Origin: Asterochloris sp. CNOR1
Taxonomy: Eukaryota; Chlorophyta; Trebouxiophyceae; Trebouxiales; Trebouxiaceae
Length of the DNA stretch: 64,000 nucleotides
Assembly: GCA_963969365.1 (NCBI GenBank)
Contig: OZ017753.1
Coordinates: forward strand, 3,038,001 to 3,102,000
Direction of reading: 5' to 3'
The first letter of the stretch is position 1, and each line of letters opens with the position of its first letter. Both the position numbers and the translations under genes were made by a program. Of this stretch, positions 1,253-64,000 are shown in pieces. Below the pieces are notes generated by a model. It saw only the letters and a list, made by a program, of their open reading frames with translations. It had not been told where the DNA came from and ran no database searches.

Positions 1253-4200
1253 ATGGCAGCATCGGACCTGGCTGCGAGGCAGGGCCAGCCTGTGGAGCAG
1301 GAGGGGGACGCCTCAGGGCACCAGGCAGGCATGTTCGAGCACTTTGCCCTGCTAGCAGGGAAGGAGGGTTTCAAGGGGTGGGCCCAGGGGCAGCACATCC
1401 ACGCCCACTCGGAGACGGGGGGCAGCTCCGGAGCCTGGCAGCCCGACACAAGCAGCCAGCCCCCGCCCCTGCAGCCCCAGCAGCAGCAGCACTGTCTGGC
1501 TGCTCACACGGCCAGCAGGGCTGGCGGTGTGGCAGGCACGGGCTCACGGCCGCATGCGCAGACTGGCAGCCTGCCATCGAGGGGCTCCTTTGGCTCCATG
1601 GCTGCAGCAGGGCAAGCCGGAGGCAACGGCGCCAGCAGCCGCCCGCCGGTGCACCCCCAGGGACCAGCTCGCGCGCTGCCCAACCGCCGCAAGCCCGGCC
1701 AGGCCGCCAGGCGAGGCCCCGCCCCGGCACCTGCGGCGCTGGCGCGGCAGGCTGAGGATGGCGCAGGCAGACAGCAGCACTCGCCCAGCCCCAGCCCCCC
1801 CGGTGAGGCCTTCAGCTGCCGTGGGCACACCCTTCATGTGATCCTGGCTTGGTGCTTTTGCACTCCTAGTTGACCTTGAGTAGGCGCTTTGTTGCTGCCC
1901 TGCTGAAGCAGGCAAACCAGATGTGTAGGCTCAGGCTGCTGGAGTCGCCATGCAGCTGCAACAAAACCCTTGTTCTATGTCTATGCCATGCCCAATGGGC
2001 AGCAATGATAGTATTGCAGGTGCTGCCGTCGGCATGTGCTGCAAGCAGTGCACCGCAGCTGTTGCTCAGCGCCAGCCTGCAAGGGCCGGGGCTGGCAGGA
2101 GCACGCTCTTTGTGTGCCATCTACTGAGCTCCTGGAGCCTTGCTTTGTGCTGGCGTCACCTGCTGAAGCAAGTCAAGCTGCAGTGGGGCTTGGGGGGACG
2201 CTTGCAGAGAGGGGCGGCTTTGATTTGAGTCATGCCCTGACTCAGCAGCGTCCTGGCTGGGCATGGCTGGCACTGCCAGCTGCAGGTTGACCCTGTGCTC
2301 GTTGGCAGAGGGACAGCCTGGCCCCACTGTCAGCACAGCACTCTGGGCACAACAGCCTGCCTCCTCACTTCACTCGCCGCTCTTGGCAATCTGATAGCCA
2401 TATCGCTTCACTGCTACCATGAGGCCATCCCTGCACCACATGTTCCTTTGAGATTGTATCCTCAGCCCTACTCTTGATGGGCAACAATGCCCCATGCTGC
2501 TCAACGCATGGGCTAGCCGCCTCCCGTTCTGCTGACTCTGCAACATGCACGTCTGGCAAGTGCCCCATGCAGGTCCACACACAGGGCGACAGCCTCCCCT
2601 TCCTCAGCGATGCACTTGGTTGGCAGGTTCTGTGCTCCAAGCTGCTCCCACACAAACGCCGACAGAATCTGCTCTTGCTGTCGGCAGGTCGCACCAGCGG
2701 CAGGGCATCCACAGGCGCCGGCAGCAGCAGCGAGGCCACCCCACGGCCGGAGGCAGCAGCCACACGGCCCCCCTCCCGGCGCCTGGCTGCCGCCGGCAGG
2801 AAGCGACACTTTTCAGAGGAGGCCAGCTCGCCACCCCCTCCTGCCAGCCGGGGAAGGCAGGCCTCAGAGGCAGCGCAGGCAGTGCCAGACGCAGGTGAGC
2901 TTGAGGAGCTCAAGCTGCGTGTTTAACTGATGGCTGCTTCCTCAGGGGACGGCTCCTTGCTCAGACAGCCAGGGCAGGCACTGCTTGATGCTGGGCAGGG
3001 AGTAGCTGACGCAGGTGAGTACAAGCGAAGCTGCAGCAGCTTGGACAGATGTCATTTCTTGGGAGAGCCCATTCTGCTGTCCCTACCTGGTCACACAGGC
3101 GCAGGCAAGGCTTCAGAGGGTGTGCAGGCAGGCAGCCGCCCCTGGTTTGTCACAAGGTGACATGGGGCGAGCAGAACCTCTTGCTTGCTGCAAGCAGCAC
3201 CCCGTTGCAGGTTGCACAGGCAGCGTCCATTGCCGCTGAGTTGCATGGTGCAGCAGATGGCCTGAAGCATTGTTGGTCTTGAACGAGTTCAGCTTGCCAG
3301 CTTATCCTATCTCATCAACATTGATGGCACCCTGCACGCCGCAGCTGCTATTGAAGCATGCGCAGCTGCTGCAGCCGCACCGCATGCACCTGCAATGCTG
3401 CCTCACACACTTCACTGTCATGATGCCCCCAGGGTAGTCTGAAGATTTTGTCATGACACATTTGGGATCACTCTATGCTTAGTAAGCCGCTGCGAGCTGC
3501 TCCACTTAATATGCTCCGCCCTGCACTCTTGTTGTAGTTGCAGCCCCTTGAGCTTCTTGCCAGGTGGTATCTGAAGGCAGGGATCAGCTTGTGTTACCTG
3601 CCTTGCAAGGGCCAGCATGTCGCCTGTCCACCATAGGCGGCCGCATGATGATAAAATCATGGTTAAACCTGGCATGGCAACACCTTTTCTGTGCTGACAT
3701 ACATTCGCCGCCTTGCAGAGCTGGAGCAGCTCATTTTGCCATGGCACAGATTTCCCTTATGAACACTGCTGAGCCACCTCCTGTGATGCTCTGCAGAGGG
3801 TTATATAGCCTGTTCCCCAACATTCTGCCTCAGATTCCAGAGATGCAAAGCCTCTTTTACAAGCTGTCCTGCAGGATGGGCAGCTCACTCTGGGCATGGC
3901 AGCCAGGGGTGTGGCCACAGGCACTTGTCAAGCATGCTGCGCTGTACATGCACAGTCAGTTTATTTGAAGGCTGGAAACCTAGGGCTCAAGTGGGTCATT
4001 TCTGCGCTCATGCACTGTCTGCAGTCTGCTGTGCAGGCCTCAGCGCTGCTCCTCTGCCACAGCTGCAATGGGGTAGGGCAGCATGGTGTGATCTGCCTGG
4101 TTGTCCAACTCCCAGGCCAAACTCCAGTGTCTGCTGCGCTCACGTGCTTTTGCTGCTGCAGGCCCTCATATGGCGCCTGCACAGGGGTCCAGCCCTGGGC

Positions 4201-6924
4201 AGCAGGAGAGGACGGGGGGTTCCAGCTCCAGCACCAGCGTGGGCAAGGCTGTGCCCCTGGCGATGCAGCTGGAGGAGCAGCAGCAGGCCATGGACAACGC
4301 TGCAGGTGTGCCCCTTGTGGCCGATGAGCGACATCTGCTGAGCCATGCAAAGCTGGTGTTGCATGCTTGTGCAGCAGCGTGTCACAGATCAAGCAGCAGG
4401 TTTGCTGCATTGCTGGCGCTGCCGCATCAGATCTGGGCCGCCTGGCGATCTCGAGCTCTGTTGTCTGCCTGACTGGGACTGCCAGGCTGCTGTTGCTTCA
4501 CGGTCACAGCACATTGCAGGGCAGCATCAGCTGCAGGCCATCAATCAGGCTGCAGGTGTGCAGCTCGTCTGATTCCAGTCAACTGTCAAGGTAGCAGCGG
4601 CATTTGTTCAGACAGGGCCAGCATCCACGCTACAGGGCAGTATGCCAGCGAAGCCTCACAGAGGCAGCCCTCAACCAGCTGTATCCTCATGTACTCGGCT
4701 GCCTGCAGGCGAGGAGCAGCCGCCGCAGGAGGAGGAGCGGCCGCGGGAGCAGTCGTCGCAGCACGAGCAGCTGCCGCTCCAGGAGCAGCAGGCGCCTCAG
4801 CAGCAGCCACGGTGGCCCCACCGGTCCCCCCGTAGGGAGGCTGCCTCTGAGGGCTCGGACTCGGGGGACATGCAGAACGGCCCCAATGGGAAGCGCCCCC
4901 GGCTGATCTGGACGCCTGAGCTGCACCAGCGCTTCCTCAACGCGGTCAACCACCTGGTGAGTTGGGAGCAGAGCAGCATTGCCCCTCGGCCATTTAGTGC
5001 CATCTGGTGCTTGGCAGCAGGGCACCTGCCTGCATTTGAATTTGCTCGGTTGGCAGTTGGTCCTGCATGACAGTGTCAGCTAAGTGCAATGTGAAGGAGC
5101 AGCTCTAGCTATGTCATAAGGTCTGCTACACAGTGAAACTCATGACCCCCATGAGCCATCACGGCCTCAATACTGCACTGCCCAGCAACTTCCACATCCG
5201 CTTGACAATTCTGATCTGAGATTGTCAGACAGGTATTGAACAACACAGACCTGAAGTGTACCAGAAACGCAGCCAGCTGAGACTGCCCCTGATCTGCACC
5301 CGCCACGATTTGTAGCAGCTGTCCTGACGCTGATGTCGACCAGACTCGCTTCTGCACTGCAGGGTCTCAAGCACGCGGTGCCCAAGCAGATCCTGCAGCT
5401 GATGAACGTGGAGGGCATGACGCGCGAGAACGTGGCCAGCCACCTCCAAAAGTACCGTCTGCACCTCAAGCCCTCAGCTCAGGGCAGCAGCAGCCTGCCC
5501 CCTGAGCAGCCGCCACCCCCAAAAGCGCAACAATTTGACCAGCAGGTGGGCCTGCCTGGCATCGCCTTGTGTGAGGTGTCTTGTAGGTTCTGGGGTCAGG
5601 AGCACACTCTACAGGCTGTGGAGGTGCTTTGGCTTGGCCGTGCAGCTTCCGCGGTCTATTCAGCTCCCTGCTGCTCACGCCACGTGGTACCAGCCTCAGG
5701 TGGGCTCTGCAGGTGGGCCTCCAGCAGGACTACAACAGCTGCATCTGGCTGCACCCATATAGTTTCCACTGCAGCATTGTATTCTCAAAACCCCCACCTT
5801 GGCAAAGTCGCCACGCTGTGCAGCATCTGTATGGCCTGCTTCAGCGCAGCAGTGCTGTAGGCGGGGTCAAGTATGTGGGTGCCCAGGGTGTTGAATGTCT
5901 GCCAGACGTGGGGTGGCCGCAGCTGCCCCTGCAAAGCCTGACCTGAGCACCTCTTGGCGCACCTCTGCAGGTGTCTCTGCCTGACTCCTGCTGTGCTCCT
6001 GCTGCAGAGTGTGGGGTGGCCGCAGCTGCCCCTGCAGAACCTACCCGAGTACTCTAGCTGGCTGAGCGGACCCATGCTGCAGACCTTGACCCCAAACCAC
6101 ATGCAGCCGATGCTGCTGCAGCACCACCTGGGCTTCTCTGCAGGTAAGCTGACAATGCTGTGCATGATTGGCTGCACCACCGTTGTCTCTGCACAGGCGC
6201 TGCTGCCTTGTTGCTGCAGTGTGCACTAGGGCCCTCAGCTGGTGAAGGTACTGTGATTACCCCCACACATGACCCTGTTGCTGCACAGGCGCTTTTGCGT
6301 CGCCGCTGCGTCCTTTGGGAAGGTCTGCTCAAGTGGCTGAACCCCAGCCCTGGAACAGCTGTTTTGCTGCGGCCTCTGAAGATGTACTGGCATCGGTCAG
6401 GAGTCGTGCCGTGTGACATAATTCGCAGCCCACACTAACACCCTGCCGCAGGTTCCCTTTGGTGATGGAGAGCCTGATCATTGCGCCGTGCCCTTTTGTA
6501 GAGGCTTGCAGCATGCTGCAAGTGGTGGCTGCGGCAAGGCAGCCCACCATCGGCTTGAAGTGTGCGCTGTGGCATCCCTGCAGGCGCGAGTAGCATGCTA
6601 CAAGCGGTGGCCGCAGCGGGGCAGCACAGCGCCGGCCTGATCGACGCTCACCTGGCGGCGTACTGCCACCCCCAGACCTGGCAGCAGGCGCCCTCCATCA
6701 GCCTCATCCCCCAGGCGCAGCAGACCTACGCCACGGCCCCCCCGAGCCAGCCCCCCGCCGAGGACAGCCACAGCACTGCCACCCCCGCCACCAACTCGGA
6801 GGCAGCCCATGAGACAGGGCGCCACCACGACGTCAATGCAGCCGAGTCGCCTGCTGCCACCGATCCCCTGTCCCAGCTGCTCAGCGCTGCGGCTGTGATG
6901 CAGGCAGGGCGTCAACGCCACTAG
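1253..6924 (+). CDS. GARP-family Myb transcription factor, LUX/PCL1-like
   Basis: Predicted nuclear DNA-binding regulator of the GARP family. Eight exons join in frame: 1253-1802, 2688-2894, 2946-3014, 4162-4305, 4709-4956, 5363-5545, 6008-6143, 6584-6924, giving about 625 residues. The single Myb-like domain is split by the 4957-5362 intron. Exon 5 ends with [15 protein letters not shown] and exon 6 carries [17 protein letters not shown] then [17 protein letters not shown]. The SHLQKYR signature and the [25 protein letters not shown] context match the LUX ARRHYTHMO/PHYTOCLOCK1 subgroup more closely than B-type response regulators, and no receiver domain is present. The flanks are low complexity: Gly/Ala/Pro/Gln-rich N-terminus, Glu/Gln-rich stretch before the Myb domain, Gln/Ala/Thr-rich tail. 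The start at 1253 is the first in-frame ATG of a long coding-like exon, but a farther 5' exon cannot be excluded. A clock role is inferred from subfamily only. Confidence 0.85.
2843..3140 (+). repeat. Three tandem exon-edge copies, one apparently exonised (GARP gene)
   Basis: The end of exon 2 (about 2843-2899, finishing GACGCAG|GTGAGC) is echoed by the whole of exon 3 (2946-3014, finishing GACGCAG|GTGAGT) and more weakly by about 3089-3140 inside the following intron. All share a GGCAGG..GCAGGCA core. Exon 3 is 69 nt and phase 1 at both ends, so it can be included or skipped without a frameshift. Confidence 0.6.
5908..6036 (+). repeat. Intronic copy of exon 7 start (GARP gene)
   Basis: The 26 bases at 5908-5933 (GTGGGGTGGCCGCAGC...) recur without change at 6011-6036, the start of exon 7 encoding VGWPQLPLQ. 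The first copy is in the preceding intron about 103 bases upstream. Confidence 0.85.
6508..6640 (+). repeat. Intronic copy of last exon start (GARP gene)
   Basis: About 6508-6557 (AGCATGCTGCAAGTGGTGGC...) is a diverged copy of about 6591-6640 in the final exon (AGCATGCTACAAGCGGTGGC..., encoding [11 protein letters not shown]). It sits upstream of the acceptor at 6582-6583. Confidence 0.75.
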
Positions 6925-7645: not shown

Positions 7646-10600
7646 ATGGCAGCTGAGAAGAAAGGAGGCAGCGGCAAGAAGCGCAAGGTCAAGAAGACCA
7701 AGCAGACTGCCCAGAAGCGTGCTGTTGCCAAAGCAGAACGCAAAGCCAAGGCGGCAGGAAAAATGGCTACCGCCGAGGACATTGATGCAGGTGAGGTGCT
7801 GCCTGCAGCCCATGCAGGCACTGGTCTCTCCAACCGTGAGTCTGGGCTGCATTGCTGTGCAATATGTAGCATGTGCTGCATGGGCTGCGAGCAGACCTGC
7901 TGACGCCCATTTGGAGCAGATCGTGCCTGGCACTCGCGCACTGCAGCTAAGTGTACATGGTGTCGTTGAGACACAAGGCTGGCTTCCTTGCTGTTGCCAG
8001 GTGAAGCATTCGTGTTCACGTCACAAATTTTACCACTGCCGGCCATCTGGGGTTGGCTGTTGCTGATGGTTTTACTGCACACTGTGGCCAGTCATGTTTT
8101 GATTGTGGGCATGGCCCTGCAGACACAAGGATGGGCAGCATCAAATCCTGTTTTGATGAGTTCGTTTGCTCTGGCTTGCCTGAACTAGACATTGTGTGCA
8201 GACACTGTAGAGAGGCTCTGCAGCTCTCTTTACACTCTCCGCCAGTGTTGCATGGCAAGACTGCCGGGTACCATGTACGGGCACAGCAGCTGCACCTCAG
8301 CAGCCCTGCAAATGTGAATCTTGTCTCCGACGAAGTGCACATGCTGCCCTGCAGCCAAGGAGCGTGCCGCCGCAAAGGAACGCAACCCCCGCGCCTTTGT
8401 GGCCTCCAGCCGCGGGGCCGCAAAGAAGGTGCGGATGCGCAATGCAGAGAAGGAGCAGCGGCGCATGCACGGTGAGGGCCTGTTCCTGCATCACACCATA
8501 AGTGCATCTCTCGGGTGTCAAGTGGCCATTGCAAGGAGCAGAGCCTGCACTTGGGTGCAGCACCTGTATCCCTCGTGCAGTGCCCGTGATGGGCTGGGCA
8601 ACTGCTAAGCTGTCACATCTGGTGTATATGGGCTCAAGTGGTCAGGTTGCTGGCACCCTCCTGCACTGCCCATTGTGAAGCACAGCCCACGAACTCATGT
8701 GCCTGTGGGCTTGTCTGAATCCGATTGATGCCCCAATTTTGCAGTGCCCATGGTGGAGCAGGACGTCACAGAGCCGCCCCCCCTGGTGGTCCTTGTTCAG
8801 GGCCCCCCAGGTGTGGGCAAGACCACTCTGATCCGTAACCTGGTCAAGCACTACGTCAATCAGAGCCTGGGGGAGGTCAAGGGGCCCATCACGCTGGTGG
8901 CGGGCAAGACACGGCGCCTCACCTTTGTCGAGTGTCCCCAGGTGTGTCCTGAGGAATTGCTTTGCAGCATTGGGCTTGCCTGCAAACAGGCAACCTCTGC
9001 CAGCACAGAGCAGCCGGCAAGAGTGCCAGCACACAGGTGGCAACCCAGTACAGTGGGTGTCTGCACACGGGCAGGCACCTCACCTCGGTGCAGTGTCCCC
9101 AGGTGTGTCCCCATTGCTTCCAGCATCAGGCTGAGCCTGCCATCAGACAGAGCTCCCTGGTTGTAAGCAGGACATGGCACCTCATCAATGCGAGTGCACG
9201 GGGAGGAGCGGGTGCTGGGCGGCTGTATACAAAAGCACTCTCCCTTGCAGGTGGATCTGTCACCTGGCCATTCTTCAGCTGTGCTGTGCAACAGGGGCGG
9301 AGGTCAGGTTTGGCACCATACCTTTTCAATTGTATTGTGCAACACGGATGGATGTCATGCTTGGCAGCTTGCCCCAACAACACATCTGCCGGGGAACAGC
9401 ACAGCCTGCTGGAGGCACAGGGGAGGGACCTACAGGGGAAGGGAGCATGCCCCATGGCACAACTTCAGGATTTGTTGACGGTTGGACAGGCGTCTGCTGT
9501 TTGTCTGTGAGTCCAAGCCCCCCCTGCCTGAACAGCAGCTTGCTCACCACCCTCTTGGCAGCTATGCAGGACCTGAATGGCATGATCGATGCTGCCAAGT
9601 ATGCTGACCTGGTGCTGCTGATGATCGATGGAGGGTTTGGCTTTGAGATGGAGACCTTTGAGTTCCTCAACATCCTGCAGGCAAGCAGTTGCCTGTGGCA
9701 GTGTGCCCTGAGCAAAGCGCAAACTACGTGCCTAGGATCCAGCAATGTCTTGCCTGCCAGCTCTTGTTGATCACCCTGGCTGGGCTACCAGTGGGAGTGC
9801 ACGCCAACTGGTCAGGCTACTGCTTTTGCAGCAACAGTTGTCCTTCTCCTTCACTTGCCTCAAGGTGATGGGCTGCCAACACCTGGTCCCTTGGCTGCAG
9901 CTGGGAGCCCTGCTGCTGTAGACGCCTGCCTTCCCAGCCATCCGCAGTGACAGCATTCCCTGTTGCTGCAGGTGCATGGGTGGCCCTAAGGTCCCAAGCT
10001 GCCAACACTCACATTCTTGTTTGCTGCATGCAGTAGGGTGCCGTGGGGATGCAGACACCTGACGTCCCATTGAGATCAGACTGCATGCTTGCTCTGCTCC
10101 CTAAGACGCCTGGCTTATGCAGCCACCCACACTCATGCGTCATATGCTGCTGCAGACGCATGGCTTCCCCAAGGTCATGGGTGTGCTTACCCACCTGGAC
10201 TCCTTCAAGGACCAGAAGCGCCTCAAGAAGACCAAGAAGACCCTCAAACACCGCTTCTGGGCTGAGATCTACCAAGGTGGGCTGCAGCCGGCCGGCCTGC
10301 TCTGAGCTGTGGACTTCTCTGCATGTATGGGTGCGCAGGCCCTCAGTACAGAGGTGTACCAAGACAGGCACCTGAGGCAATCATGTCCTGTGCTTGAGCA
10401 CCTGCCCTCTACCTGCCTGATCTGTCTTGTGCAGACTCCTGCTGAATGTGACTTGGAAGGTTTTTGAGGTCTGACAGACCATGGGCACTAGTTGCCTGCA
10501 TGCTGATTTCTCCCTTACTTTTCTGCACGGTGGCTGCGCTGACCTGCGCATGCTCTGTGCAGACCTCTAGTGGTCACAATGACCTGTGGCTTGTTTGGCT

Positions 10601-13600
10601 CCCTAGCGCGGCAAGTGCAACGTTGCCAGCCACTCGTTGTAGCAGCAGGTGCAAAGTTGTGAGCCCATGCACAGTATACCGTGACCTGGAAAGGTGACTG
10701 GCAACCTGCTGCATGTGCAGGCATCAAGCTCTCCAGCGCAAATGGCGTGGCACACAGGGACATTGGGCTGCTGCAATCCCAGCTCAGCTTGACCCCTGTT
10801 CGCAGTCTCAGCAGTGCCAAACATGAGGCAGGCTAGCATGACACATGCAACGAGGATGCGTATGACCATATATGCAGGAGCCTGGCTGCCCCACCTGAGC
10901 GGCATGTTGACCAGTTACTGGACCTCTTGCCTGCATAGCGTGCAGGTGCCATGCTGCCCTACTTGACCGACATGTCTACCAGTCACTGGAAGACTGATCA
11001 TCCCCTTCCTGCAGGCGCTAAGCTGTTTTACCTGAGCGGCATGAAGAATGGGCGCTACATGAAGCGAGAGGTGCTGAACCTGGCGCGCTTCATTTCTGTG
11101 ATGAAGTTCCGGCCCCTCAGCTGGCGCCAGACCCACCCTTTCCTGCTGGCAGACCGCTTTGAGGTGGGCATCTGTTGTCTAGTGCTCGAGTCTGGTGGTC
11201 AAGATCTAGTGTGCCTGCATGAGTCTTTGATCAAGTCCAGGCCAGCAGACCACATGTAGATGGGGCTGGGCTTATAGCTGATAGGGATCTGGTGCCAGGG
11301 TGAGCAGACTGCTTTGAGACAGGGTTGGCTGCTTTTGCTTATAGGGCCTCCCGTGGCTAATGTCTTGACCATGCAGGCCTGTGCTCTGCGAGAGTTCAGC
11401 CAAGCAGGCTTACCTGCATAGCTCAATCTCTTTTGTGTGAGAAGCAGTAAGCAGCGCCCTCTGGTTTGCAGGACATTACCCCAGTGGAGAGCATCCGCGA
11501 GAACCCCAAGTGCGACCGCGACGTGACAGTGTACGGCTACCTGCGGGGGGCCAACATGAGGCAGGGCACACGTGTGCACCTGGCAGGGGTGGGGGATCAA
11601 TCGGTGAGACCCCTCTGCAGGCCGCAAGCCACCCATATGCCGTCCTGTGCAGTGCCAGCTCCTGATGAATCCTTTAGTTGTCTCTGCCTCAGAGGTAGGG
11701 GCCCACTCGGTGAGGCCCCCTCTGCAGGGAGCTCATGTGCTTGTAAGCCGTGTTTGTGATGGCTCCTTTGATGTGCCTTCATCATGGGCGGGCTCATTGA
11801 TGCCCCTCACTGTAGGTCCCATGCAGGGTCTGACCATGGCGACCTGGCCTCTGAAAGCCAGCAGCTCGCTGACCAGGCCTGGCTTCAATCAGACTGCCTG
11901 CGTTTTTGCAGGTAGTTGTGGTGACTGGACCCATCAGGACCACAAGTCTCTGTGCCTGCATCCTGTTGTGTGTGCTGTCGTGCTGAAACCCTCCGCAGAC
12001 CCTCAACTTGTGACTTGCCCACAGTTTGCTGAGCTGGACCAGCTACCAGACCCCTGCCCGCTGCCAAGCACGGTGAAGAAGCGCGGCTTGAACGAGAAGG
12101 AGCGCATGCTGTACGCGCCCATGGCCGATGTGGGGGGCCTCATGTACGACAAGGACGCCGTCTACATCAACATTCCCGACTGGAAGGTGGGCAGGGATGC
12201 ATCGCCGTGGTCCTTACCAGATGGCAGCAAGGGGATCCTGTGCTGTGCAACTTATTTTTGCGGTCAGCAACTCGAAGCAAGCAGGATCTAGCCTGCGTGC
12301 CACATTTTGAGAGGAGCTGTAAGCAGGGCGAGGGCCCAGTCTGCACGTACATGTGCAATGGTGAGGTGAGCAAGGCGGCGCTTGAGATGCCTGCTTTGCT
12401 GCGCTGCACATGTCTGGGTGCAGGTCCAGCTGCAGCATGGGGGCCACCTTTGTCTCTGGTGAGCGCCACTTGGAAGGCAACCAGGGCTGGGAGGTGTCTC
12501 CCCTTGCAGGCATCTCTTGAGATTACTGACGTCAGCCAGTTCACGCACTTTGTGTGTGGCAGCAGCTCACAGCAGGGTGCAGATCCGCCTACAGTATGGG
12601 ATCTCCCTTCACCTCTGGCAGGAGCTGTTTGAATAGCAGGCAGCACTGGGGATAGCAGCAAAACTGCTTCACAACGTTTGTACCAACACTCACAAGAGCT
12701 GGTGGGAATGAGTGCTGGCTTTGCTTCTGGGTGCTCATGGAGCACACCACCAGGTTCTATGTGCTTGCAAATCAGAGGTGACTCCAGAGCTGCAAAGGCC
12801 CAGATGAACCCTGCCGCATCTGAATCACAGCATGGGACCCTTCCGACTCACCAACAGCCAGTATGAGCCCTGAGCTCCGCAAGAGGGGCATCGCCTACCA
12901 AGTTTTTAAAGCGCTGTGACACAGGGATCCCAAATTCGAGTGCGAACTGGCCTCTGGTGGCGCCTCCTGTACGACATGCCCCACGTCAATGTTCTGCCAG
13001 GTCACAGCTGTGCAGTTTGCTTGTGGGTTGATGTAAGACCAGGCGGGTATACATGCCAGTCAGGGAAAGTAACATCAGGAAGCTATGCATGCGTGTGGCA
13101 CATGCCTTGTCTGTCCAAAATGGTGCTGATGCCAATGCTGCAGGTGCAGTACAGCGCGGATGGCACTGCTGTGTCCACACGTTACGACCCAGGAGGGGAC
13201 ATGGTGCGCGAGCTTCAGGCGACCAGCACAGGCATGGATGAGAGGCTGCAGCAGTCCCAGATCCGGCTGTTCCAGAACGGCACGCCCTTGCAAGCAGGTG
13301 AGGTGACCTTCCTCCTATCAGGCTATGTCAAGAGAGGCACTCATACAGGCAGGGCTAGGGATGACCAGCCTGCAAGCACTGCAAGCAGGTGAGGTGACCA
13401 TTCTCGCTTAGGCTACACCAAGACCGGCATCCTTGCTGGCAATCAAGGCAGGGCTGTGTACTGTGTGAGAGTGTGCCGCAAACCCAGATCCGCCTGTTCC
13501 AGTACAGCGCTGCCTGCAAGCACATGGGAGGGTACAGAGCTGAGTGACCAGTCACAGACTGCAGGGTCAATGTGGGTCCTGCCCACTAGCTCTGGGTCAC

Positions 13601-16600
13601 CATCAATAGGCCAAAGGGGCTGGGTCTGGTACTACTGCGATGGGAGTATGGACCTGCACGCTTGCTGACCACTCAAACAGGTGCTTTGGCGATATTGACA
13701 CCAGACATCTCACGGGGGAAGCATTTGATTACATGGTCTTCAAAGGGGAGTGTGTTCCCTTGTCTAACAAAACCTCTCGCAGTTATGAGTACAACTCGTC
13801 TCAACTCTCAGTAGGCAACCCATGTCACACCTCATGCCTCTCTGCCTGCAGAGCTGAACAGCAGTCAGCAGGCAAGTGCCCTGGAAGGGCTGCATGATGA
13901 GTCACCTTCAGATGAGGATTCTGAAGGCTCCGACAGCAGCGACGAGGAGGGAGAGGGGGAAGACGAACTCAGTTCCTCCTCAGAGGATGAAACAGAGGCA
14001 GATGGCCCAGCATCAATCCGGCAGCCAGTTGGCCAGGAGGTTGTGCATGCTAGCGGCAGGAAGCGCAGGTCAGCCCTGCCGCAATGCTCGCAAGCACAAT
14101 GTTAGCTTGAAGCTGCTTGAGCCAGCAAGGGCCACACCAAACTTAAACTGGCCAGGAGGGTGTGCATGCTGGCAGCAGAAAATGTGAACAAGACAAGCCG
14201 TGACTGGCTTGCTGGGGTAGCCAGCAAAAGATCTGAGGTGCGAGCCATCGGAGATGAGCCGCACATGGGGCAGTGTGCTGCCCGTGAAGCTCTGAGCGCT
14301 TCTGCAGCTGCAGTAGCCCACCAGCAGAGCTCTGGCACATCAGGCTGCGGTTGCTCCCCACCTCTACTACTTGCAGTATGCGTTCAGACACATCAGGCCT
14401 CCGTGCTTTGCTACCCGAATGCTTTTGTTCTTGATGGACTGCTGGCAGTGGCAGGCTCTGCTCGCTTGAGTCTGAGAGGCGTCCACACTGTTAGCACTGC
14501 CGCATTAGTCTCTGAAGTCCAACCTTTCTGCAGGCGGGCTGTGTTTGAGAGGGACGCACTGCCTCCACCGCCACCAGACGAGGGGGACTCTGAAGAAGAG
14601 GAGCCTGCACAGGACTGGGCTGCTGGGCCCGCAACTGGCAGCCTGGGGGAGGCAGAGGGCAGTGGTACAGATGACAGTGGGGCAGAGTCTGATGACTCTG
14701 AAGGTGAACTCTGAGGCAGATTGCAAATCAGCTGGGACACTGGAGGCTCTGCCCTAAGGCTGCAAACTGGTCGACTGCAATATGGCAACATGTGCTTTTT
14801 CCCTTTTCATGATGATTGTCTCTTGCGGCCTGACCACACATATCACACGCTCAAGGCAGCGCCTGTCTCGGCCAGCGCTGAAGTGCAGCAAGCTTTAGGC
14901 CTCGCCAGCGCTGTCGTCCACTGCTGGGGCACTCAACGCATTGCTGATCTTGCCTGGCAATGTTGCATGCTGGCCACTGGCTTGTAGCTCTGCAAGCACT
15001 GCCGACCGCTGCCGGCGCTGCCTGAGATGCTCTCACAACGCATTTCTGCTGCAGGCCTGGGACGTGCTGCCAAGTGGAAGGCTAACATGCTGCGCAATGC
15101 AGCAGCCCTGTTCAGCAACCGAGCTGCCGATCTGCAGAGCTATGTCTATGGGGAGGTAGCCACTGACACAGGCACCAAGCGGCAGGTGAGCTGTGGTGGG
15201 GCTGCCTGCAATTGGCTAAGCCCCACTCTTGACCATAGGTCGTGCTGTCTGCTACGCGTGATGCCCACAAATTGTGATGCCAGGCAGCACACTCTTCAGG
15301 CCCCGCAGCGAAGCGTCCTGCAGCGTTTAGTGTGCTGCACACCAGCAGCCTTAGGTCATTCACAACTCCCGCGCTGGTGGTCGCTCGGTCAGGGGCTGTC
15401 TTTTCATTACATTGTGTTTGTGTGCATGTGTGTCCATATGGTACTTCAGCATGTTGACTGGTAGGTGCTGCACGTCTGGCATGTGCAGGTCAAGCACGGC
15501 AGCTTCTCCTCCCATGGCACCACAGAACAGTGCCAAATGTGCTCGGCTGACTTTAGGGCATGGTCTAGGTCTTCCTGCTCAATTCCTCTCCAGCAAAGCA
15601 ACTGGCGGCTGGGAAGGTCTGAAGCTGCACTAAGCCCTGTCCTGTCCAGATGGAGCTGCACTTCTCAAGCTCCTCTCGGATTGCGTTCATCAAGTCATGA
15701 TGATGAGGCCCAGGAGAGCCGGACTTGCAGACCTCTGAGCTTGCCTATGCATGTTCCCTGCAGGTGGCCGCTGAGAGTGATCAGGATGAGGATGAACTCT
15801 TCAAGCCCCGGGGACGCAGAGCTGCAGAGGACGCAGCCGTCTCTGCAGACGCCATGGACGCATTAGACAGCTGCCGTGTCACCCTTGACGCCGGGCGCCT
15901 CCAGCAGTGGCAGGATGCAGGGAGCGCAGAGCGGCTGCGCAACCGCTTTGTCACAGGTCAGTGCTTCGCTGCCGGCCTCCCTCTATGCATCAAAATCCTG
16001 ATGCAAGAATGGTGCTGTTGGATTACCGGTTATCTTGGGTCCAAGTTGCCATGGTTGCTCTGGCTGCGTGGAGGTCACAGCCCCAGGCTGCGTGAATGCA
16101 GGGGCTGGCCGTCCTGCGCTTGGGCGAGTCAGCTCAGACGCTGCTGGCTGCTGCTGTACAGGGGATGTGGCAGGGCTGGGACCACACCCACCCGGAGGCC
16201 ATGTGCACTGGCATTGGTTCTGCTCTATGCCCGCTGCACAGGGCTTGCCTCCAGGACATGTCCGCTGTCCACGCAGCTGACTCAAATGCAAGCAGGCCCA
16301 GCCGCTGTCCAGCATCCCGCTGCCCAGCCGGTGTCATCTCTTCCAGGGCTGCTCAGCCCTGAACCCTGCCGTGGGGAGTTGCAGGGCAGCGCAGCGGTGG
16401 CGGCTGCCAACTTTTCAATCCCCAGCATTTGTAAACCCTGCAATTAGCCCCTCCTGTTGGTGCTACAGGTCACTTCAATGATGCAAGCAGCATGACGTGG
16501 CCCACCCAACTCTGTCCGTCTCATCATTTTGCTTGTGTGAGGTACTTCCCTTCATGCCGCACGCGACTGTGGTGCTGGAGGGCAGTGCGACGCGGCCCAC

Positions 16601-19600: not shown

Positions 19601-22600
19601 CCAGCAGGTGCCTGCTAGGGGCACACGATTGCCACGAATGTCGTTCTCCTGCTGGTCATCAGCCTGCACAGGCCCTTGACCGATGAACAGACCACCAAGC
19701 AGAGTCCCCCTTGCCTGCCATCCATTGCAGAGCTGGGAGAGCCATTGAGGTGTTCTGCCACAATGATTTGCCTGCTCAGGAGCCCCCCTACATGACATAG
19801 ACGCTGGCGTAATTTGCTGCCCGCAGAACTGGCGCATCAGTGCCACGGGCGTCGTCCTCCAGCTGGGGGCCAGCCTGCACATCGTCAAGAAGCTGAAGCT
19901 GCGCGGGGAGCCCTTCAGGATCCACCGCCACACTGCCTTTGTGGGCGGCATGTTCAACAGCCGCCTGGAGGTCGCCAAGTTTGAGGGGGCGGGGATCCGC
20001 ACCGTGTCAGGCATCAGGGGCATCATCAAGAAGGTGGGCTGACCCTACTGCTCAATATCAGGCTTGAATTGAAAATGTGTTGTGAAAAGGGATTGATAAA
20101 ACAACTTCTGCTCTCAAAAGAGGCACCAATCCATCCATATGGCAGCTGAGATGGCAAGTCACTGTCATGTACCCCTTACCCTGTACCCCTTTTATGATTT
20201 TCAAGGGAAGGCCTCTTCCTGCCTGCAGGCTCTACAGCCAGCCTTCAGGGCACCGCAGACAAAGCTGCCATTGCGTGTGCCAGGTAGCCCTTACATTGCA
20301 CTTCCATTCCGGGCTCTGAGAGGGGGCTTGCTGCTGCCTGCAGGCTCTGCGACCAGGAGTGCAGGGGGCCAAGGACGGCGCCTTTCGGGCCACCTTTGAG
20401 GACAAGCCACTGATGAGTGACATCATCTTTCTGCGAGCCTGGGTGGCTGTGGACCTCCCCCGCTTCGCCAACCCCGTCACCAACCTGCTCGCCCCGACCA
20501 ACATGCTTCTGCGGAGGCCCAAGCCTGGACTGGTAGAGGGCGCCCAGGTGGGCTTAAGTCCTCTGGGTGGACAAATGGGAACCTCTGTATGTGCTGGGCC
20601 CCAAGTGTGGGCCATTGGCACTGAGTGATGGCGCTCAAACCCTCTGGGTGGATTGTTGAGGACGCTTGGGGGTGTGTGTGGGGCAGGGAGGATCCCGTGA
20701 AAGATGTGTAAGGGTCCTGAGCTGGCTCTCTTGTTGCTTAAGGCGTGGTGAACTGGCCTGAGATTGGCAGAGTGTGGCCACTGCAATGCCCATATCAGCA
20801 TTTATATCTGGGTCTGCTCCATGCATGCGTCTCCCTCTGAACCAAAAGCACCTGCATCCATGCAAGTTCCCTGAATCAGCCAAGAGTGCCTGCAATCCAT
20901 TCATGCAGCATCTGGGATCTGTTAAACATATTTTGACCAACTAAGTAGAGAGCGCTTGCAGCAGCAGCATCCACCTTGATGTCCCCTTGCTGTTCAGGTT
21001 TAAATGCTTGTGGCTGTCCCCCTCTCCTGCAGGATGCTGTGGCCTTCCTAGTGCCAAATGCTGGAGCAATCACTGCATCCCAGTCCCTCACTACCTGCCC
21101 TGTTGCACTCTGCTGCTCAAGTACTCCCTACTTTGACACCACACGTGAGGTGTACATCATTGATGCAAGCAAGGTGCTCAAAGGGGACAGCATGTGGCAC
21201 CAACAAGCTCCTCATGGTCGTCTCCCCATCTTCTGCAGGAGGCTGCGCTTGAAGAGGCTGGACCTTCTGGCGGCAACGCTGTCCCTGTGGCCCCCAAGCA
21301 TGGGGCAGCGGCAGCTGCTGCAGCACCAGCCCCGTCCTTCACGCCGGCAGCATCCTTTGCCGGCGTGCGGCCTGGCACCCACTTCAAGCTGGGGCCTCAG
21401 GGGCTGGGCTACTATGCTGATGGGGTTGGGCAGGGTCCCGCAGCAGGTAATGGGCTACTTGAATCCACACTGGCTTCAGCAGCTGCATGTTGAGCTTTGA
21501 GACAGAGCCACCAGCGACATGATGAGAACTGCGGCAGGTGCACAGTCCAGGCCTGTACTGGGCTGCATGGCTGTTGGTCTCCGCCATGTGCCTTCTCTAG
21601 AATCATGAGCAGATGCTGATGACCAACTGCAGAGCCAGCACATATCAAGAAGTGTTGGTGGTCCTGCAACACTACCCCAGCCTTGCGCGTCTGCAGCCAC
21701 CCGACCCTGTTTTGTGCGTTCCAATTCCATGTTGCGCACTCTTCAGTGTGGTGCTGGGCTGGGTGCTCATGGGCATTGTGCTGGTGCCTGCAGGCCCCTC
21801 CCCAGCTGTTACAGCGGAGGCTGAGGAGGGTCAGGGGTGGAGCAGCATGCGCACGGTCGCCCAGATGCGCCGCGACCTGGGCATTGGTGCCCCGCGCAAC
21901 ACGGACTCGCTGTACAAGCCCATCGAGCGCGCCCCGCGGCAGTTCAACCCCCTCAAGATCCCACGTGCCCTGCAGGTGGGTGGATGTCTGGCCAAGCAGG
22001 GTGCCTGGCACGGACATGTCAGAGCGGCATCTTGCTGGGCCCCCCTGTTGCAGCAGTATGCACACCCGTTGAGGCCAGACACCTTGGCAGGGTGCTGTTC
22101 TGCTTGAGCACCATTGGCTCGCTCACAGTCTCATTGTAGGTGTCCTGCTCGCTTGGCTCACTGCCCCCCCCTTTCCAAATGCCTCTCTTTGCTTGGGGGT
22201 TGCCTGCCCAGCTTTGTCAAGCTCAGGCCGGTGCAGTCCAGCATAAGGCAAGCGTCCAGTGGAGCTGCACCTGCAGCCGAGTTGCGACAGCCGCAGGCTG
22301 AGACACAGGCACCATGGAGCTCTGTCAGGAGCGCTGACACCACAGATGTCCCACACCTGCAGGCTGAGCTGCCATTCAAGAGCAAGCCCAAGCAGCAGGC
22401 CCCTCGCAAGAACCCCACTCTGGACCAGAAGCGTGCTGTCAAGTTCCGTGAGCCTGCCGAGAAGAAGGCAGCCAGCCTGGTGCATGCGCTGTCTGCCATC
22501 CGCAATGCCAAGCTTGTCAAGAGGCGGGAGCAGCATAAGCGGCGACAGAAGGTAAGAAGGCTGTGCTTGGGCATGTCTTTTCCGCTGCAGCATCAGCTCT

Positions 22601-22827: not shown

Positions 22828-23143
22828 TGATCATGAGGCATGTCCTGAAAGTCTATCACCAAGCAGGATGGGACGCTGCAAATTGATTATGAAACGCAAG
22901 CTGACTATGAGACCATAGGGCAGGCCTGCTTCTAGACAGCTCCAGTGAATGCCAGCATGAAACATGCCTAGTACTCTGTGTACTTAGAAAAGTCAGTGAC
23001 TGAATGCATCGAAATCAAATGTATGAAATATTGAAAGGGCCAATCTAGTTGTTTCAGCACATCTACCATGCAGGATGCGATGCAGAGACGTTCTCCGGGT
23101 GGGGAAAGCCTGACTTTGCTTTTGCCTTTGCTAGTCTGGTGGC
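22828..23143. other. Convergent intergenic gap, BMS1 / MINIYO 3' ends
   Basis: Only 316 bases separate the stop codons of two convergent genes, so both 3' UTRs must fit or overlap here. No gene or hairpin terminator is recognised. Confidence 0.6.
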
Positions 23144-29100: not shown

Positions 29101-32100
29101 ACTTCTGTAGGACCCAGATGGCTGAGCAGGTACAAAAAGCCCAGTCCAGCCACTGTTCAAACAGCAAAGCACATTTTCATCATCATGCACCTGAAGCCCA
29201 GCTGATTTTGAGACCTGGAACTGGAGAGCCCAGCAAGACCAGTGTGCAGACTGCCCTGTGAAGTTTTGACACTTGACTCAAGTAGCCTGGGTGCCAATGC
29301 TGGACATCTCTGAGGCTTGCTGATTGCCTCTGCACAGCATGCGTGCAAGCACCTGGCTCAGCACCCACCTGAAGCCTGCACTGCCTTGGCGATGCCCTGG
29401 CTGCCTTGCAGCAGGAGCTGCAGACTCTCCAGCGCCAGAATTTGCACTGCGACTGCCGTGGGGCTGCCTGAGTGGCCCAGGGCGCCCTGCAAGGCCTGCT
29501 GCAGGCCAGGGCACTGCCACACTGCCCGTGTGGCGTCTGGACCTGCCCGCAGGTACGTGTTGAGGATGCGCAGCAGCAATGGATGGGCAGCTGACGAAGC
29601 AGGGTTCTGCAGGAGATAGCTCATGCGGTTCAGCACCTGCAGGCAGAGGAAGCCAGATGGAGAAGACGGACAGGCAACTTTTCTACAGGATTGCCCCAGC
29701 AGCCAGCGTAGGAGTGGCTCTCAAATGCACAGGTGCATGATTTGTCATTGACGTATCATCGCCCATCCAAGCTTAGCAGACCGTCTGCAGATGAACTGCC
29801 GGGGCATGCTTGTGGCCAGGCGCCGTATCAAGCCATGGGCACTGCACTTCGTGTGGGCAGCAGCCAGATGGTCATCCATGCTGAAAAGACCCATTCATGC
29901 GTCACTACTTTGGTGTTACAGCGCCTAGCACCGCCCATGCCCCACCTGCATGCGCAGCAGTCCCACTAGGGGATCTGCAGCGGCAACAGCGCTGTCTGTG
30001 CTGCCGTCATCAGCCGCATCTGCGGCAGCCTCGGTCCCTGCGGGCGGTGGCTGCAGGGGTTGGGGCACCCAGGCGCCGACTGCATGCGGCCGCTCGAGGA
30101 AACGGTAGGGTAAGCATGGTGCACCTGCAGCAGGTCAGGACTGACAGGCTGGGGGATGGTGGCGGCATGAGCGGGGCTTCACAGCTGCTGCATGAGAGGT
30201 TTGGTGCCCCCCATATTGCCGACAGAGGCTTTGTTGCTGATTGCAGTGTAATGCCATTGCCCAGCAGTGGTTAGGGGGCAACAAGCGGCCTGCATGGGCA
30301 GATGACACCCGGGAGGATGAAGAATTGATTGACTGCTCGAGATATACAAGAATCATCAACAGCCAGCGCACACCACCTGATGCAGGACACGCCTGGGCAA
30401 ATGTTAGCACAGCCATCTCAGCCTCTGTGGGGCATAGTGTGGCGGCAATGGCCTCAGCTGCGGCCGTCACGACTGGCATGTGGCTGTCGTCTAGCGCCCG
30501 TCTCAGCACTGTGGGAAGCTCAGCCTCCTCCATGGCAGCCTGCCACACCTGACTCCAGTCTGCAGGCAAAGGCAGGGCACTCACCAGATACCCAGGTCTG
30601 TCTGTCCCGTGTAAGAGCTTCCTCAGCTGCACATGCCGCATCCGGTTGCAGCATTCTGGGCGGCACCAGAAGTGCCAAAGATCTGCCACACCCTGCTGCA
30701 GTCTGCAGGCGTGGCGCACGCCAGCTCAAGCAGGCTCGTGGATCTGGTCACAGCCAGCCGTGGGCCATGCATCAGGTCCAGCGTCCAGGCCAGAAACATG
30801 AGAGATAAGGACGGCCGGAAGCGCTCAAGCCTGCCCCCAGCAGCATACAGCATGGTTGCTACTGGAATGAGGCATTACAGCTGAGTGCTGCAAAAGCGAT
30901 GCGAGAGTGTCTCAGCCAGACCTCTGCTCCACCACAGCTGCTCGTAGTCAAAGCAGCCACCTGCCAATGCTGTTGTCCCATTCAAGGCTTGACTCATTGA
31001 TGTCAGATGGCCTTTGAGAACCGGGCCTCAGAACATTTCCCACTGCCCTGCGCATGCTGTTGCCCATCCGTGACTTGACTTCAAAAACCCCAAGTGGACC
31101 ACACCTGCCATATCTAGGCCTCTCACAACAGATTGAGCTGATGTGCACTACATCTTGCTGAGGCAGCCAGCAGCGGTCTCACCAACGACTCCGGTGGCCC
31201 TGGTGGGTGAGCTGCCCCTGCGCAGGTCTGTCGCCCCCAGCTCGCGGCGGACCTGGAGCAGCACCCGCCGCAGCAGGTCCAGCGCAGCTGTGCGTTGCTG
31301 GGGCATGGAGCTGCGGGTGAGCAGGCATGCCTCATGGAGGCTGTACCCTGCTGCTGGCACGCTGCCCTCATCCTGCCTGCAGGCCGCACAGAAGAGCTAG
31401 CTGAGTGCTGACTGCTGCCTTGTGCAACAAGTTGTGGGCTGGCTGGGAGTGTGGGCTGTAGTCTGCTGATCTGCTGCCTCTGCAAACACAACACAGGGCG
31501 GTCTGAGAGATAAAGCACAGACAACAGAGGTCAAGCACCCCATCTGCCTCCCCCGTAAGACAGCAAGTGTTGCTAGCAGTGAGGGCACACCTGAGTGGGT
31601 CCCGCTTCACTACAGCGTCCCAGGCCTGCTCCTGGCTGTCCTCTGCACCCACTGCTGCTGCCACAATTGTGCCCTCATGCACTGCAAAGCGCACACCCCT
31701 GACGATATCTGTGGCTGCTCCTGTCCAGCTTTGCTGTGGCCGCGGCGGCCACGGTGCCGGCGCAGATGGGGTGGGTATGCCAGCTTGCTGCTGTGAGTTC
31801 CTGTGCGGCTGTTGGGCGGGTGCTTGCTCCTGCTGTTGCTGCTGGACAGCGGCACCAGAGGCATCCATTGGGGCCTGGGCGGCTCCTTCTGGCGAGGCAG
31901 CAGCGGCCTCCTGGCTGCGTGCAAGGGCCCTGCGCTTCAGAAAGGCCTGCGTCGCAGGTGACAGGCGTGCACCCACCTCACGCTGCATCTCAGCAACCTG
32001 CAGGCAGCCGGCAAAGCTGACTTCACGCTGGCCGTGGGAAGGTCACAGGACCATTTGAGAGCTGCTCAAGGAAGCTCAACAGGGCTCATGCAGTGATGTG

Positions 32101-34511: not shown

Positions 34512-37500
34512 ATGGCCATCATGAGGAGGATCCTCCTTGCCATCTTCGCAGTCATTGTCACTCTCTCAGGTGGGGAATGCATGAGGGCTTTCATCTGGGC
34601 TGTCCTGACCGGTTGCAGCATCCCAAGATGTTCCTAAGACAGAGATCAAAGTGCCCCATGTTTTTGTGCCCCATTTCAAGAATGTATGCTGATTGCCCTG
34701 CAGGCACTGCTCAGGGCAGGAAGGTCCTGCAGGCGCCTGCACCCTCCCCTGGAAGCTCTCTCACTCCCACAGTGCCTGCCAACCTGTGGAACCTGTCTGC
34801 CACTGATGCCATAGCGCTCCTGTGCGCTCGCACCATCACTTCGACCCAGTATGTTCAGGTGAGATCAACATCCTGTTGTGACAAGCATGGCAACCATGGG
34901 CCTTTGCCGACAATGTGATGATTTTCAACATGATGTGTGTAGGCACTCTTCAATCATTACAACGACGGAGGCTTCTCCTGCCTGAACTCATTCATCAGCC
35001 TAAACACCTCCAGGGTGAGGCACAATGCAGAGCCTGCCTTTCAGATGTGACTGCTGTGGGAGGTTGTGCCAACTATCCTGCCTCACAGCCAGGCGCATGC
35101 GCAGGCCCACAAGGCATTCTGTTGTGCACTTTGTTCGTTTTGCCAGTTGCAAAAATGGCCCCCTCCCCACAAATTATGTCGGCACCCCGTCTCACAACTT
35201 ATGTCGTGCCCTCCCCTGGACCCTTGAGTGTTGTTTGGGACACGAGCATGACGCGAGCATCCAGGCGTTGTACTCATGCACCTTTCATCCCTATGTGACA
35301 GCCTTGATTGCTGCCTGCTTGAGCAGGTCTTGCAGGAGGCGGCTGCCATCGACGCCAAGGCTGCTGCGGGCCAGAGCATTCTGCCGCTTTGCGGCCTGCC
35401 CCTCGCTGTCAAGGATTCCATCGACTGCCTGCCCTATCCCACCTCTGCAGCAACACCTGCTCTGCTTGGTGAGCGCGGCGTGGCAGCTTGCTGTACGATG
35501 GTGGTGCCTGCTCAGCCCCTTTCTGTCTGCATGAGGTTGTGACCCTCAGATGAGCCGTCCATGTCTGCCCTCCTGCTGCTGAAGAAGTAATTGTGTGCCT
35601 CCTGCCCCAAGCAGCACGCTGCTCAGCAGTGCCTGTAAGGGAGCTGCGGTATGGTTTGGCGAATACTGTTCCCCCCCTGCCACAGGTGCCTACCCCCAGT
35701 TTGAGGCAACGCTGGTGACTTCCTACAAGAATGCCAATGGCATCATTCTGGGTATGCAGCCTGCACTGACCAGCGCTGTTGCTCTACGGCATTCCATGCG
35801 TGCACGGCATAGCCCCATTGCCCCCACGCTTGGGTTCACTGGCACCTCGGCTGTGAAGCATTGCATGATGATCCAGGCATGTGCCATGCTGAACAACAGT
35901 GAAGCAGCCACTCACCTCTCGTCCACATGCTTACAGGCAAGGCTAACCTCGTGGAGCTGTCCAGCACAACAACAGGCATCAACACCGACAGCAATGTGAG
36001 CTGCTGCATCTTGGAGCAAGCCTGTCTGCAGGGTCTACTTGACCTTTGTGCATCTGCTGTAGGAGCTTGTCCAGCTCAGCAAGTCTGGGCAGCATAGTTG
36101 CTTGTCTGAGACAGCTGGTGTATTCTTGAATATTGTGCTGCATGCAGGGCATCAAGAACCCTCTCAATGCATATGCCCAGGACAGGATGCCAGGAGGTAG
36201 GCTGCACTGCCATCTCTTGTTTCATCCCAGCCTGCCTAGTTGCTGCTTTTGCTGGCAATTTTCATGGACCTGCTGCTCATGATGTCATTGTCATGATGAT
36301 GTTGTCACAATTACTAACCAAGTCTGGCCGCGACCATTCTGAGCAGGCCAGCAAGACCAGCAGCCATTGCATCCAGACTTTGCCGTTGCTTGCTAACGCG
36401 GCTGCCTGTTCATCTGTCATCTGCTTTCATCCCATGCGGGCTGCAGCGCTGGGTACGCAGCAACTACCATACTGCATTGCACCCTGCTAGGCTGTGTTGC
36501 TTCTGCTCAACAAATGCCACAAGTTGCCTTGATGTGCAGGCCCCAGTGCTTGCTTCACAGCAGTGCCTGCCTCTCGCTTCAAGCAGCAGAACCCAGCGCT
36601 CTGTTCCTGTATGCAGGCTCCAGCGCTGGGTCTGCAGCATCCATTGCAGCCCGGATTGCACCTTGGGCGCTGTGTGAGGACACTGGCGGCAGCTGCAGGG
36701 CGCCTGCAATGGCCAATGGTGGGTTGCCTCCCTGGGTACTCCTGGGGATCACATGCACCTGCTCGGCTGCCAGCAGCTGTTGGTTTGACTGGACAGCCTG
36801 TTGTTGTCAGCAGAGCTGAACTGGCTGATGGTGCTGTGCACCATCTTATTTTCTAGCCAGCTGCTGCTCTGCAGCAATCAAAATTTGCAGTTGCACTTGC
36901 GCTCGGCGAGGTTGTCATCGGTTGCTGCCTCAATGGCCTAACCTGCTCAGCAAGACAGATGACAGGCCCTTGATCACTTGCAGGCATCTTTGGCTTCCGC
37001 CCCACACTCCACTGCTACAACTACACAAATGCACTTGTCCCAGCAACATTCACACGCGACACTGTTGGTGGGTCTGAATTTCCTTTTCCTTTCCTTTCCT
37101 AAGTGTCCTTCTGTTCATTATGCCAGGATGTACAGTACCTGTCAATGCCCCGCCAGGCCCCCTGCTGCAGTGCAATGCAAGCAATGCATTGTGCGTGCAA
37201 GTTGAGCGCAAGGGTTCCTATGGCATATGAATGAGTTTGTGAAGGCTTGGCAGCTGGCCTTTGACCGGTACAACAGAGTGGACTCCCTCCCAAGACATAG
37301 CACTCACCTTCACTCTCTGGCAGGATCAATGGGGCGCACTGCTGAGGATCTCATCATGCTGGACAGCATTGTCCGCACGAAAAACTACAGCAGCTCTGGG
37401 GAAGGCATGCTGCCGGGAACTGTGCCCTGTGACGTCAACGTCAACACCAACTTAAGCCTGGCTGGCCTGCGCATTGGGCTGCCCAGCACCTTTGGTGAGC

Positions 37501-63715: not shown

Positions 63716-64000
63716 GTCAGACGATTGCTTGGGGTTCTGCCGGTGTCCTTTACGTTGCGGCTCGTGCTGAAAACGCCTGGTCAAGCATTCACTCATCATG
63801 GCGCACCACTTCCTCACAGCGTGCAACATGTGCACAGACCCCCACGGCTCGGCTGCAGAGACCGCTTGAGGGTTACTCTTGGCTCTGATGGCACAAGCAT
63901 TATCCCAAGCAATCTGCAGTGGCTGCAGCCATGATGTGGCAGTCTGGCAGTCTCTGCAGATGGTCACCTGCTGCAATACTCTGATCTCCGATGTGCTCCC

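Follow-up and report, generated by a model that had tools for sequence, protein, structure and literature searches.

Worn copies of exon edges inside introns of the green alga Asterochloris sp. CNOR1 suggest that existing introns grew through tandem duplications spanning splice sites

We analysed a 64-kb stretch of the genome of the green alga Asterochloris sp. CNOR1 (C8:3038001-3102000, on contig OZ017753.1; hereafter the window), in which Pfam matches identify genes for BMS1 (AARP2CN), an amidase, RPAP1/MINIYO (RPAP1_N/RPAP1_C) and a protein with a Myb/GARP domain. Introns of these four genes hold what we call ghosts, that is, decayed copies, on the same strand, of the edge of the adjacent exon. 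The window was studied together with five 50-kb blocks (250 kb) picked by position alone (C1 to C4 at 1.00-1.05 Mb and C10 at 0.70-0.75 Mb), giving a sample of 314 kb, or ~0.6% of the genome (56.38 Mb in 21 contigs). The gene models are predictions only, made with a small self-trained hidden Markov model (HMM) gene finder that returned 49 genes and 620 introns, with a median length of 243 nt for introns and 131 nt for exons. After exclusion of 171 introns that were shorter than 60 nt or flanked by an exon shorter than 40 nt, 449 introns were tested. In the edge test, the terminal 60 nt of the adjacent exon (last or first) were aligned to the intron; in the strict test, the junction was part of the query, and a ghost had to score at least 28 and include at least 8 exon nt.

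By the strict test, 12 of the 95 tested introns in the window hold a ghost: one in GARP, nine in BMS1 (two of which adjoin a doubtful predicted mini-exon), one in RPAP1/MINIYO and one in the amidase gene. This bears out the initial annotation, which had described at least a dozen such introns in the same four genes. In GARP (plus strand), the exon end 2867-2899, with its donor at 2895, recurs as a donor ghost at 2987-3019 (offset 120, score 31, identity 0.79) within the intron 2895-4161. On the acceptor side of the same gene, a ghost at 5908-5939 copies the exon start 6011-6042 (offset 103, identity 0.94 over 32 nt) and includes an exact 26-mer (5908-5933 = 6011-6036), and a ghost at 6510-6558 matches the exon at 6592-6640 (offset 82, identity 0.78 over 49 nt). 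The 5908/6011 pair stands outside the 12 introns because the exon at ~6009 was not predicted, a gene finder error spotted by eye.

In BMS1 (plus strand), the exon end 8913-8949 (donor 8942) is copied at 9074-9110 (offset 161); the alignment extends over 93 columns with 0.72 identity, and its segment 8931-8949 = 9092-9110 is exact. An acceptor ghost at 9911-9935 is a direct repeat of the exon start 10145-10169 (offset 234), and the donor region 11584-11613, with 5 exon nt, has a copy at 11690-11719 (offset 106). The exon end 13239-13314 is followed by two donor ghosts, at 13380-13405 (offset 91) and 13466-13508 (offset 227), and the exon end 14030-14062 by one at 14149-14181 (offset 119, identity 0.88 over 33 nt), so that the series noted earlier at 13258, 13382 and 13484 and at 14031 and 14151 are indeed present, as diverged copies. 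Across the acceptor 16662/16663, two contiguous tandem copies (16510-16604 and 16605-16704) abut and share 0.72-0.73 identity across about 100 columns. A decayed tandem array, found with Tandem Repeats Finder (TRF; period about 84/168), occupies 18843-19195; its unit takes in the intron end and 16 nt of exon sequence, counted from the exon start at 19180, and its five heads (GGTGGCGCC) start at 18843, 18925, 19011, 19093 and 19180, as had been reported. Searched genome-wide, this array matched only itself. Further downstream, the exon end 19314-19354 pairs with a donor ghost at 19569-19609 (offset 255), an acceptor ghost at 19630-19670 with the exon at 19841-19881 (offset 211), and an acceptor ghost at 20219-20241 with the exon start 20334-20356 (offset 115).

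RPAP1/MINIYO lies on the minus strand, where the exon start 30540-30567 has an acceptor ghost at 30683-30710 (offset 143). In the amidase gene (plus strand), the intron that we call alpha (36197-36616) contains an acceptor ghost at 36434-36462 of the exon start 36611-36639 (offset 177).

BMS1 also contains a likely GC-AG intron at 9681-10155 (CTGCAG/GCAAGC as read by eye, the slash marking the junction), whose donor after 9681 was misjudged by the gene finder and in which the following exon start recurs at least once in decayed form. A long acceptor consensus was seen in all blocks, with TGCAG at 373 of the 449 acceptors and CTGCAG at 237, the next base being G in 318 introns. The earlier description of nearly all junctions as CAG/GT and CTGCAG/G is thus correct in part only, 153 of the 449 donors being CAG/GT and 268 AG/GT.

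Across the sample, the strict test returned 62 ghosts, 30 on the donor and 32 on the acceptor side, spread over 57 of the 449 introns; about one sampled intron in eight thus holds a worn copy of the neighbouring exon edge. The edge test was then read against four controls. At a score of at least 28, the donor edge matched its own intron in 24/449 cases, compared with 7/8966 for edges of other genes, 5/3518 for non-adjacent edges of the same gene, 0/449 for the reverse complement and 1/449 for the reversed sequence. The corresponding counts for the acceptor edge were 16/449, 9/8971, 6/3518, 1/449 and 0/449. At a score of at least 24, they were 44/449, 72/8966, 36/3518, 1/449 and 2/449 for donors and 28/449, 105/8971, 33/3518, 6/449 and 0/449 for acceptors. 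Hence the alignment of introns against their flanking exons, which the initial annotation had put forward as a check, finds own-edge similarity far above every control.

Ghosts accompany long introns. At a score of at least 28 alone, own edges matched in 3/149, 14/150 and 41/150 introns from the shortest to the longest tercile, and edges of other introns in 3/1440, 1/1451 and 7/1444. The median length was 417 nt for the 57 introns with a ghost and 247 nt for the 392 without (p=1.7e-11). Ghost offsets have a median of 149 nt (10th to 90th percentile 82-240); the length difference of 170 nt is close to this median and counts in favour of intron lengthening. At least one ghost is present in 27 of 48 genes, and ghost introns occur in all six blocks, at 4 to 22 per block, so that the suspected genome-wide habit does extend beyond the window. 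Their density varies (heterogeneity p=1.9e-5): C3:1000001-1050000 is the richest, with 22/69, at ordinary GC and intron length, and the other five blocks have 12/95, 6/80, 4/70, 8/72 and 5/63.

The local repeats of the sample are almost exclusively direct. At a score of at least 32, direct and inverted repeats numbered 66:0 at offsets of 25-100, 87:0 at 101-300, 18:1 at 301-600 and 5:5 at 601-1200. Clustering at a score of at least 30 gave 126 events with offsets of 25-600, 24 of them in the window, some wholly intronic or exonic; for the event alignments we kept just those rows in which the two copies were distinct. Exon-exon repeats hold the reading frame, 11 of the 12 offsets being multiples of 3, a figure to which the gene finder's own frame rule contributes, and the remaining 114 events show no frame preference (34/42/38 modulo 3). 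Frame is thus kept in exon-exon events alone, as expected if just the coding copies are constrained. Together, the 87:0 ratio and the abutting copies at 16510-16704 display what a tandem duplication across a junction should leave, namely direct, local, head-to-tail copies that combine intron and exon sequence. With ghosts at exon edges above controls, this sustains the view that the copies are tandem-duplication-like and straddle exon boundaries. That the process is ongoing, as was also proposed, is unproven: the strongest large-unit copies are ~88-91% identical, and the few copies with 95-97% identity are small-unit or exon-exon.

Comparison of paralogues is consistent with enlargement of introns by such duplications, the ghost-bearing versions being the longer ones at four introns. 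The window amidase gene has three close paralogues (on C15, C11 and C6). Intron limits were taken from unhinted models and reading by eye, since protein-hinted models ran into introns; the percent identities between paralogues and the ghost-free length example below come from protein-hinted models. Intron alpha lies at an equivalent protein position in all four genes. It has an acceptor ghost in the window gene (420 nt, offset 177) and in the C15 gene (427 nt, offset 182), with ghost flanks that can be matched by eye, and none in C11 (187 nt) and C6 (220 nt). Of the four genes, those of the window and C15 resemble each other most (80% in the protein-hinted model alignment), so this ghost probably predates their split. 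Intron beta measures 602 nt in C6, where it holds three 90-nt ghost copies, each combining the intron end with about 27 exon nt, that are 88-91% identical; the other genes have ghost-free versions of 256, 188 and 128 nt. In C6, intron gamma reaches 818 nt and holds a ghost (offset 432) made up mostly of acceptor-side intron plus 8 exon nt, as opposed to 225 nt in the window gene, 233 nt in C15 and 171 nt in C11. In the gene for the ribonucleotide reductase small subunit on C1, a 654-nt intron has donor ghosts at offsets 152, 298 and 430, whereas the matching intron of the C5 paralogue is 317 nt long (a little longer should its donor be GC) and shows no ghost at a score of at least 28.

Other paralogue searches added no further cases. 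Within the 314-kb sample, no paralogues were found at E<=1e-8; searches with C2_g0 and with a fragment that we take to be epimerase-like matched the query gene alone, and the second copy of a presumably glyoxalase-like gene had no match to the ghost-bearing exon. Microhomology at the C6 array was considered and dropped, the breakpoint being hidden by older upstream copies. The C5 ribonucleotide reductase gene (C5:2878300-2882600) has, at reverse strand positions 1130-1705, an intron with several acceptor ghosts that is absent from C1, either through gain in the one gene or through loss in the other.

Taking these observations together, we consider that tandem duplication across the splice site of an existing intron, which lengthens that intron, is probably the best explanation. 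Local tandem duplications, mostly of 80-240 nt to judge from ghost offsets, would arise within genes, and some would cross the donor or acceptor of an existing intron. Splicing would stay with the junction attached to the exon body, leaving the mRNA unchanged; therefore the extra exon edge and its splice site would be absorbed by the intron, which would gain one unit length, and the ghost would decay or first multiply into a short array. We infer that the exon-attached site is the one used in RNA, that such changes are nearly neutral, and that slippage, unequal exchange or replication-based repair is the cause at the DNA level. The trace itself is real and widespread. A wider reading, under which intron length in this lineage comes mainly from junction duplication, so that long introns would largely be graveyards of exon edges copied again and again and worn past recognition, and ghost sites unused decoys, is tentative and on balance doubtful. 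If it held, long introns in other green algae might have arisen in this way too.

The sampled introns have strong splice-site motifs, and one might ask whether these, together with codon bias or low complexity, produce the likeness by chance. This idea is already refuted and deserves practically no credence, as control edges from other genes or the same gene pass the threshold ~5-12x less often at a score of at least 24 and 20-70x less often at 28, and as own edges exceed those of other introns in each length tercile. It is also very improbable that we are looking at alternative or mutually exclusive coding exons born from tandem exon duplication. One BMS1 ghost (19569-19609) is frame-preserving, open and called an exon by the gene finder, and ghost splice sites are not purged (GT in 13/15 and AG in 20/24, or GT in 9/18 with a cruder ungapped mapping). 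But the ghosts are fragments of exon edges, their offsets are spread over 13/23/26 modulo 3, in-frame stops interrupt 41 of the 62 ghost extensions (compared with 75% of 361 random intron extensions), and just 4 of the 62 are both frame-preserving and open, a count from which in-frame open copies may be missing when they were taken as predicted exons. Judged from their sequence, ghosts are therefore unlikely to serve as alternative coding exons. No erosion of ghost splice sites was found in these counts, for which 10.6 GT and 17.0 AG were expected (p=0.26 each), and the sites are retained about as neutral decay predicts. A further proposal, the Rogers model favoured in the initial annotation, is that an exon segment holding AGGT is duplicated and supplies both splice sites of a new intron, the copies being traces of its birth. 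Duplicated junctions do resemble ready splice sites, as AG/GT donors occur in 268/449 introns and G follows the acceptor in 318/449, and the ribonucleotide reductase intron with acceptor ghosts in one paralogue is absent from the other. This model predicts that, in register, the intron start resembles the downstream exon start and the intron end the upstream exon end. In the 449 introns, however, mean in-register identity equalled that of controls: 0.254 vs 0.252 and 0.260 vs 0.262 for k=30, 0.254 vs 0.258 and 0.262 vs 0.252 for k=20, and 0.269 vs 0.253 and 0.272 vs 0.260 for k=12. The upper tails exceeded controls in all six overlapping tests (7/3, 5/3, 7/4, 5/4, 2/0 and 7/4 observed/control; summed 33 vs 18), and these slightly heavier tails mean that a few true intron gains may be present among the sampled introns. 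Ghost junctions lie 32-1146 nt (30 of donor type) and 8-697 nt (32 of acceptor type) from the opposite splice site, with just 1 of 62 within 10 nt of it, and introns alpha, beta and gamma as well as one ribonucleotide reductase intron exist in ghost-free paralogues. AGGT intron gain thus finds no support as a general cause, and we regard it as very improbable.

A further alternative is that exon edges are copied by a process aimed at junctions, started for example by R-loops or DNA breaks at splice sites or by CAGGT/TGCAG motifs recombining with one another, instead of by random tandem duplication. In a hot-spot test with 40-nt queries, 200-nt targets and a score of at least 24, matches were found for 22/281 donor exon edges, 15/281 acceptor exon edges and 25/281 queries straddling the acceptor, against 17/5429 and 15/5429 for donor and acceptor edges compared with other introns. 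Intron interiors matched in 38/1069 cases, roughly tenfold above the interiors of other introns (30/8000), with junctions about twofold higher again; within exons the count was 17/362. The similarity rate is nearly flat along the intron with an approximately twofold peak at the junction, which may reflect slower decay of exon-matched copies. Predicted intergenic windows gave 0/401, which would suit a junction-directed process; this deficit was not relied on because predicted intergenic DNA amounts to just 26.8 kb. Among 98 events with offsets of 60-400, junction events outnumber purely intronic ones 55:24, a ratio of 2.29, whereas simulations with uniform ages gave about 1:1 (0.91-1.14). The simulated ratio depends on age, being 0.7 at t=0.15, 2.0 at t=0.25 and 13.6 at t=0.35, so that mostly older duplications, combined with slower decay of the constrained exon copy, give at least 2:1 alone. 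For donor ghosts, random breakpoints are an adequate model at t=0.3 (p=0.21) and t=0.4 (p=0.78) but not at t=0.2 (p=0.002) or with t uniform over 0.1-0.5 (p=0.004). Acceptor ghosts are centred on the acceptor beyond random-breakpoint expectation, with a median exon reach of 23 nt as against 32-45 nt. Since older duplications raise the simulated ratio past 2, we concluded that no junction-specific mechanism is needed for these data, and junction-directed copying seems rather unlikely, though less so than intron gain.

Several observations nevertheless weigh against absorption of random tandem duplications into introns. The observed junction excess is matched in simulation solely if most duplications are older, and the stretch of exon covered by acceptor ghosts is shorter than random breakpoints would give. 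Direct repeats also exceed inverted ones at offsets of 2000-5000 (19:8), where a tandem origin is unlikely. Copies abut in just 16 of 105 events with offsets of at least 60, the rest being too decayed or not abutting, and beyond the matches the likeness of the flanks is below what would remain had a full-length tandem copy decayed evenly, a shortfall that may be due to large indels. Exons are self-similar internally as well, as the within-exon windows of the hot-spot test indicate. Longer introns offer more search space, yet the tercile controls stay at 0.1-0.5%. The gene models themselves are HMM predictions, and the paralogue cases come from two families, with genes picked for having both ghosts and paralogues. 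A shared amidase intron without a ghost at a score of at least 28, the one preceding the IFGFRP exon, varies in length too (265, 356, 106 and 178 nt); therefore junction duplication is not the sole source of length change. Because of these ghost-free length differences and the register tails, our preferred explanation is very slightly weakened and the case for AGGT intron gain very slightly strengthened.

Internal tandem duplications are reportedly a frequent feature of eukaryotic genes and able to alter introns (Gao & Lynch 2009); as that work is cited in PMC4974935 and PMC3443670, the outcome is new or multiplied introns, whereas here existing introns are lengthened by swallowed exon edges. 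The closest single case is the RNA-dependent RNA polymerase (RdRp) gene of potato, in which a tandem duplication runs from the 3' end of an intron into the 5' part of the exon that follows and the parent junction supplied most of the splice signals; an intron-internal 83-bp tandem duplication is described as well (Ma, Lan & Niu 2016, PMC4974935). Both situations involve tandem duplication across an intron-exon boundary. By that account, however, the potato exon copy remained an exon and a new intron arose, in one intron, whereas in this genome the exon copy is apparently swallowed and the old intron grows, in many introns. The BMS1 intron 19353-19826 has a ghost, the open and frame-preserving 19569-19609, that could be a real mini-exon comparable to the potato case. 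The AGGT model of intron gain by tandem genomic duplication (Rogers 1989, Hellsten 2011; reviewed in PMC3443670) shares with our observations the tandem duplication and the re-use of duplicated splice signals, as far as the reviewed outline goes; it differs in that register and ghost position here contradict it as a general cause, as do introns common to ghost-free paralogues. The tandem repeats of Chlamydomonas reinhardtii and Volvox carteri reach their highest density in introns, with an enrichment close to the junctions with exons, and the fraction of mRNAs with repeats in their introns is larger than in land plants (PMC3887541); the relevant passages of that study concern tandem-repeat motifs and do not describe decayed exon copies or intron growth. 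Chlamydomonas and its relatives have conspicuously long introns, for which the reason is left open in the passages on intron length of PMC8226300, where the mechanism driving length is called likely ancient. In searches of an open-licence library, we found no report of pervasive swallowed exon edges that lengthen introns.

Intron gain has been much studied; transposon-free intron growth has not. Ghost exon edges provide a countable, datable trace of one mechanism of such growth. They also raise a question about splicing, as the spliceosome would have to pick the exon-attached site even though one to four near copies of it lie no more than a few hundred bases away.

No introner-like family was seen: blastn among the 449 introns of the sample (~0.6% of the genome) gave just 4 pairs at E<=1e-5, each of them from the C10 block (C10:700001-750000). 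Three of these pairs lie inside one predicted gene, C10_g6, and one links it with a neighbouring prediction, at 76-89% likeness, which suggests a duplicated gene segment merged by the gene finder. Finally, the window contains at 59000-63931 a KUP-type potassium transporter gene (K_trans), to which the gene finder apparently fused an unrelated upstream gene.

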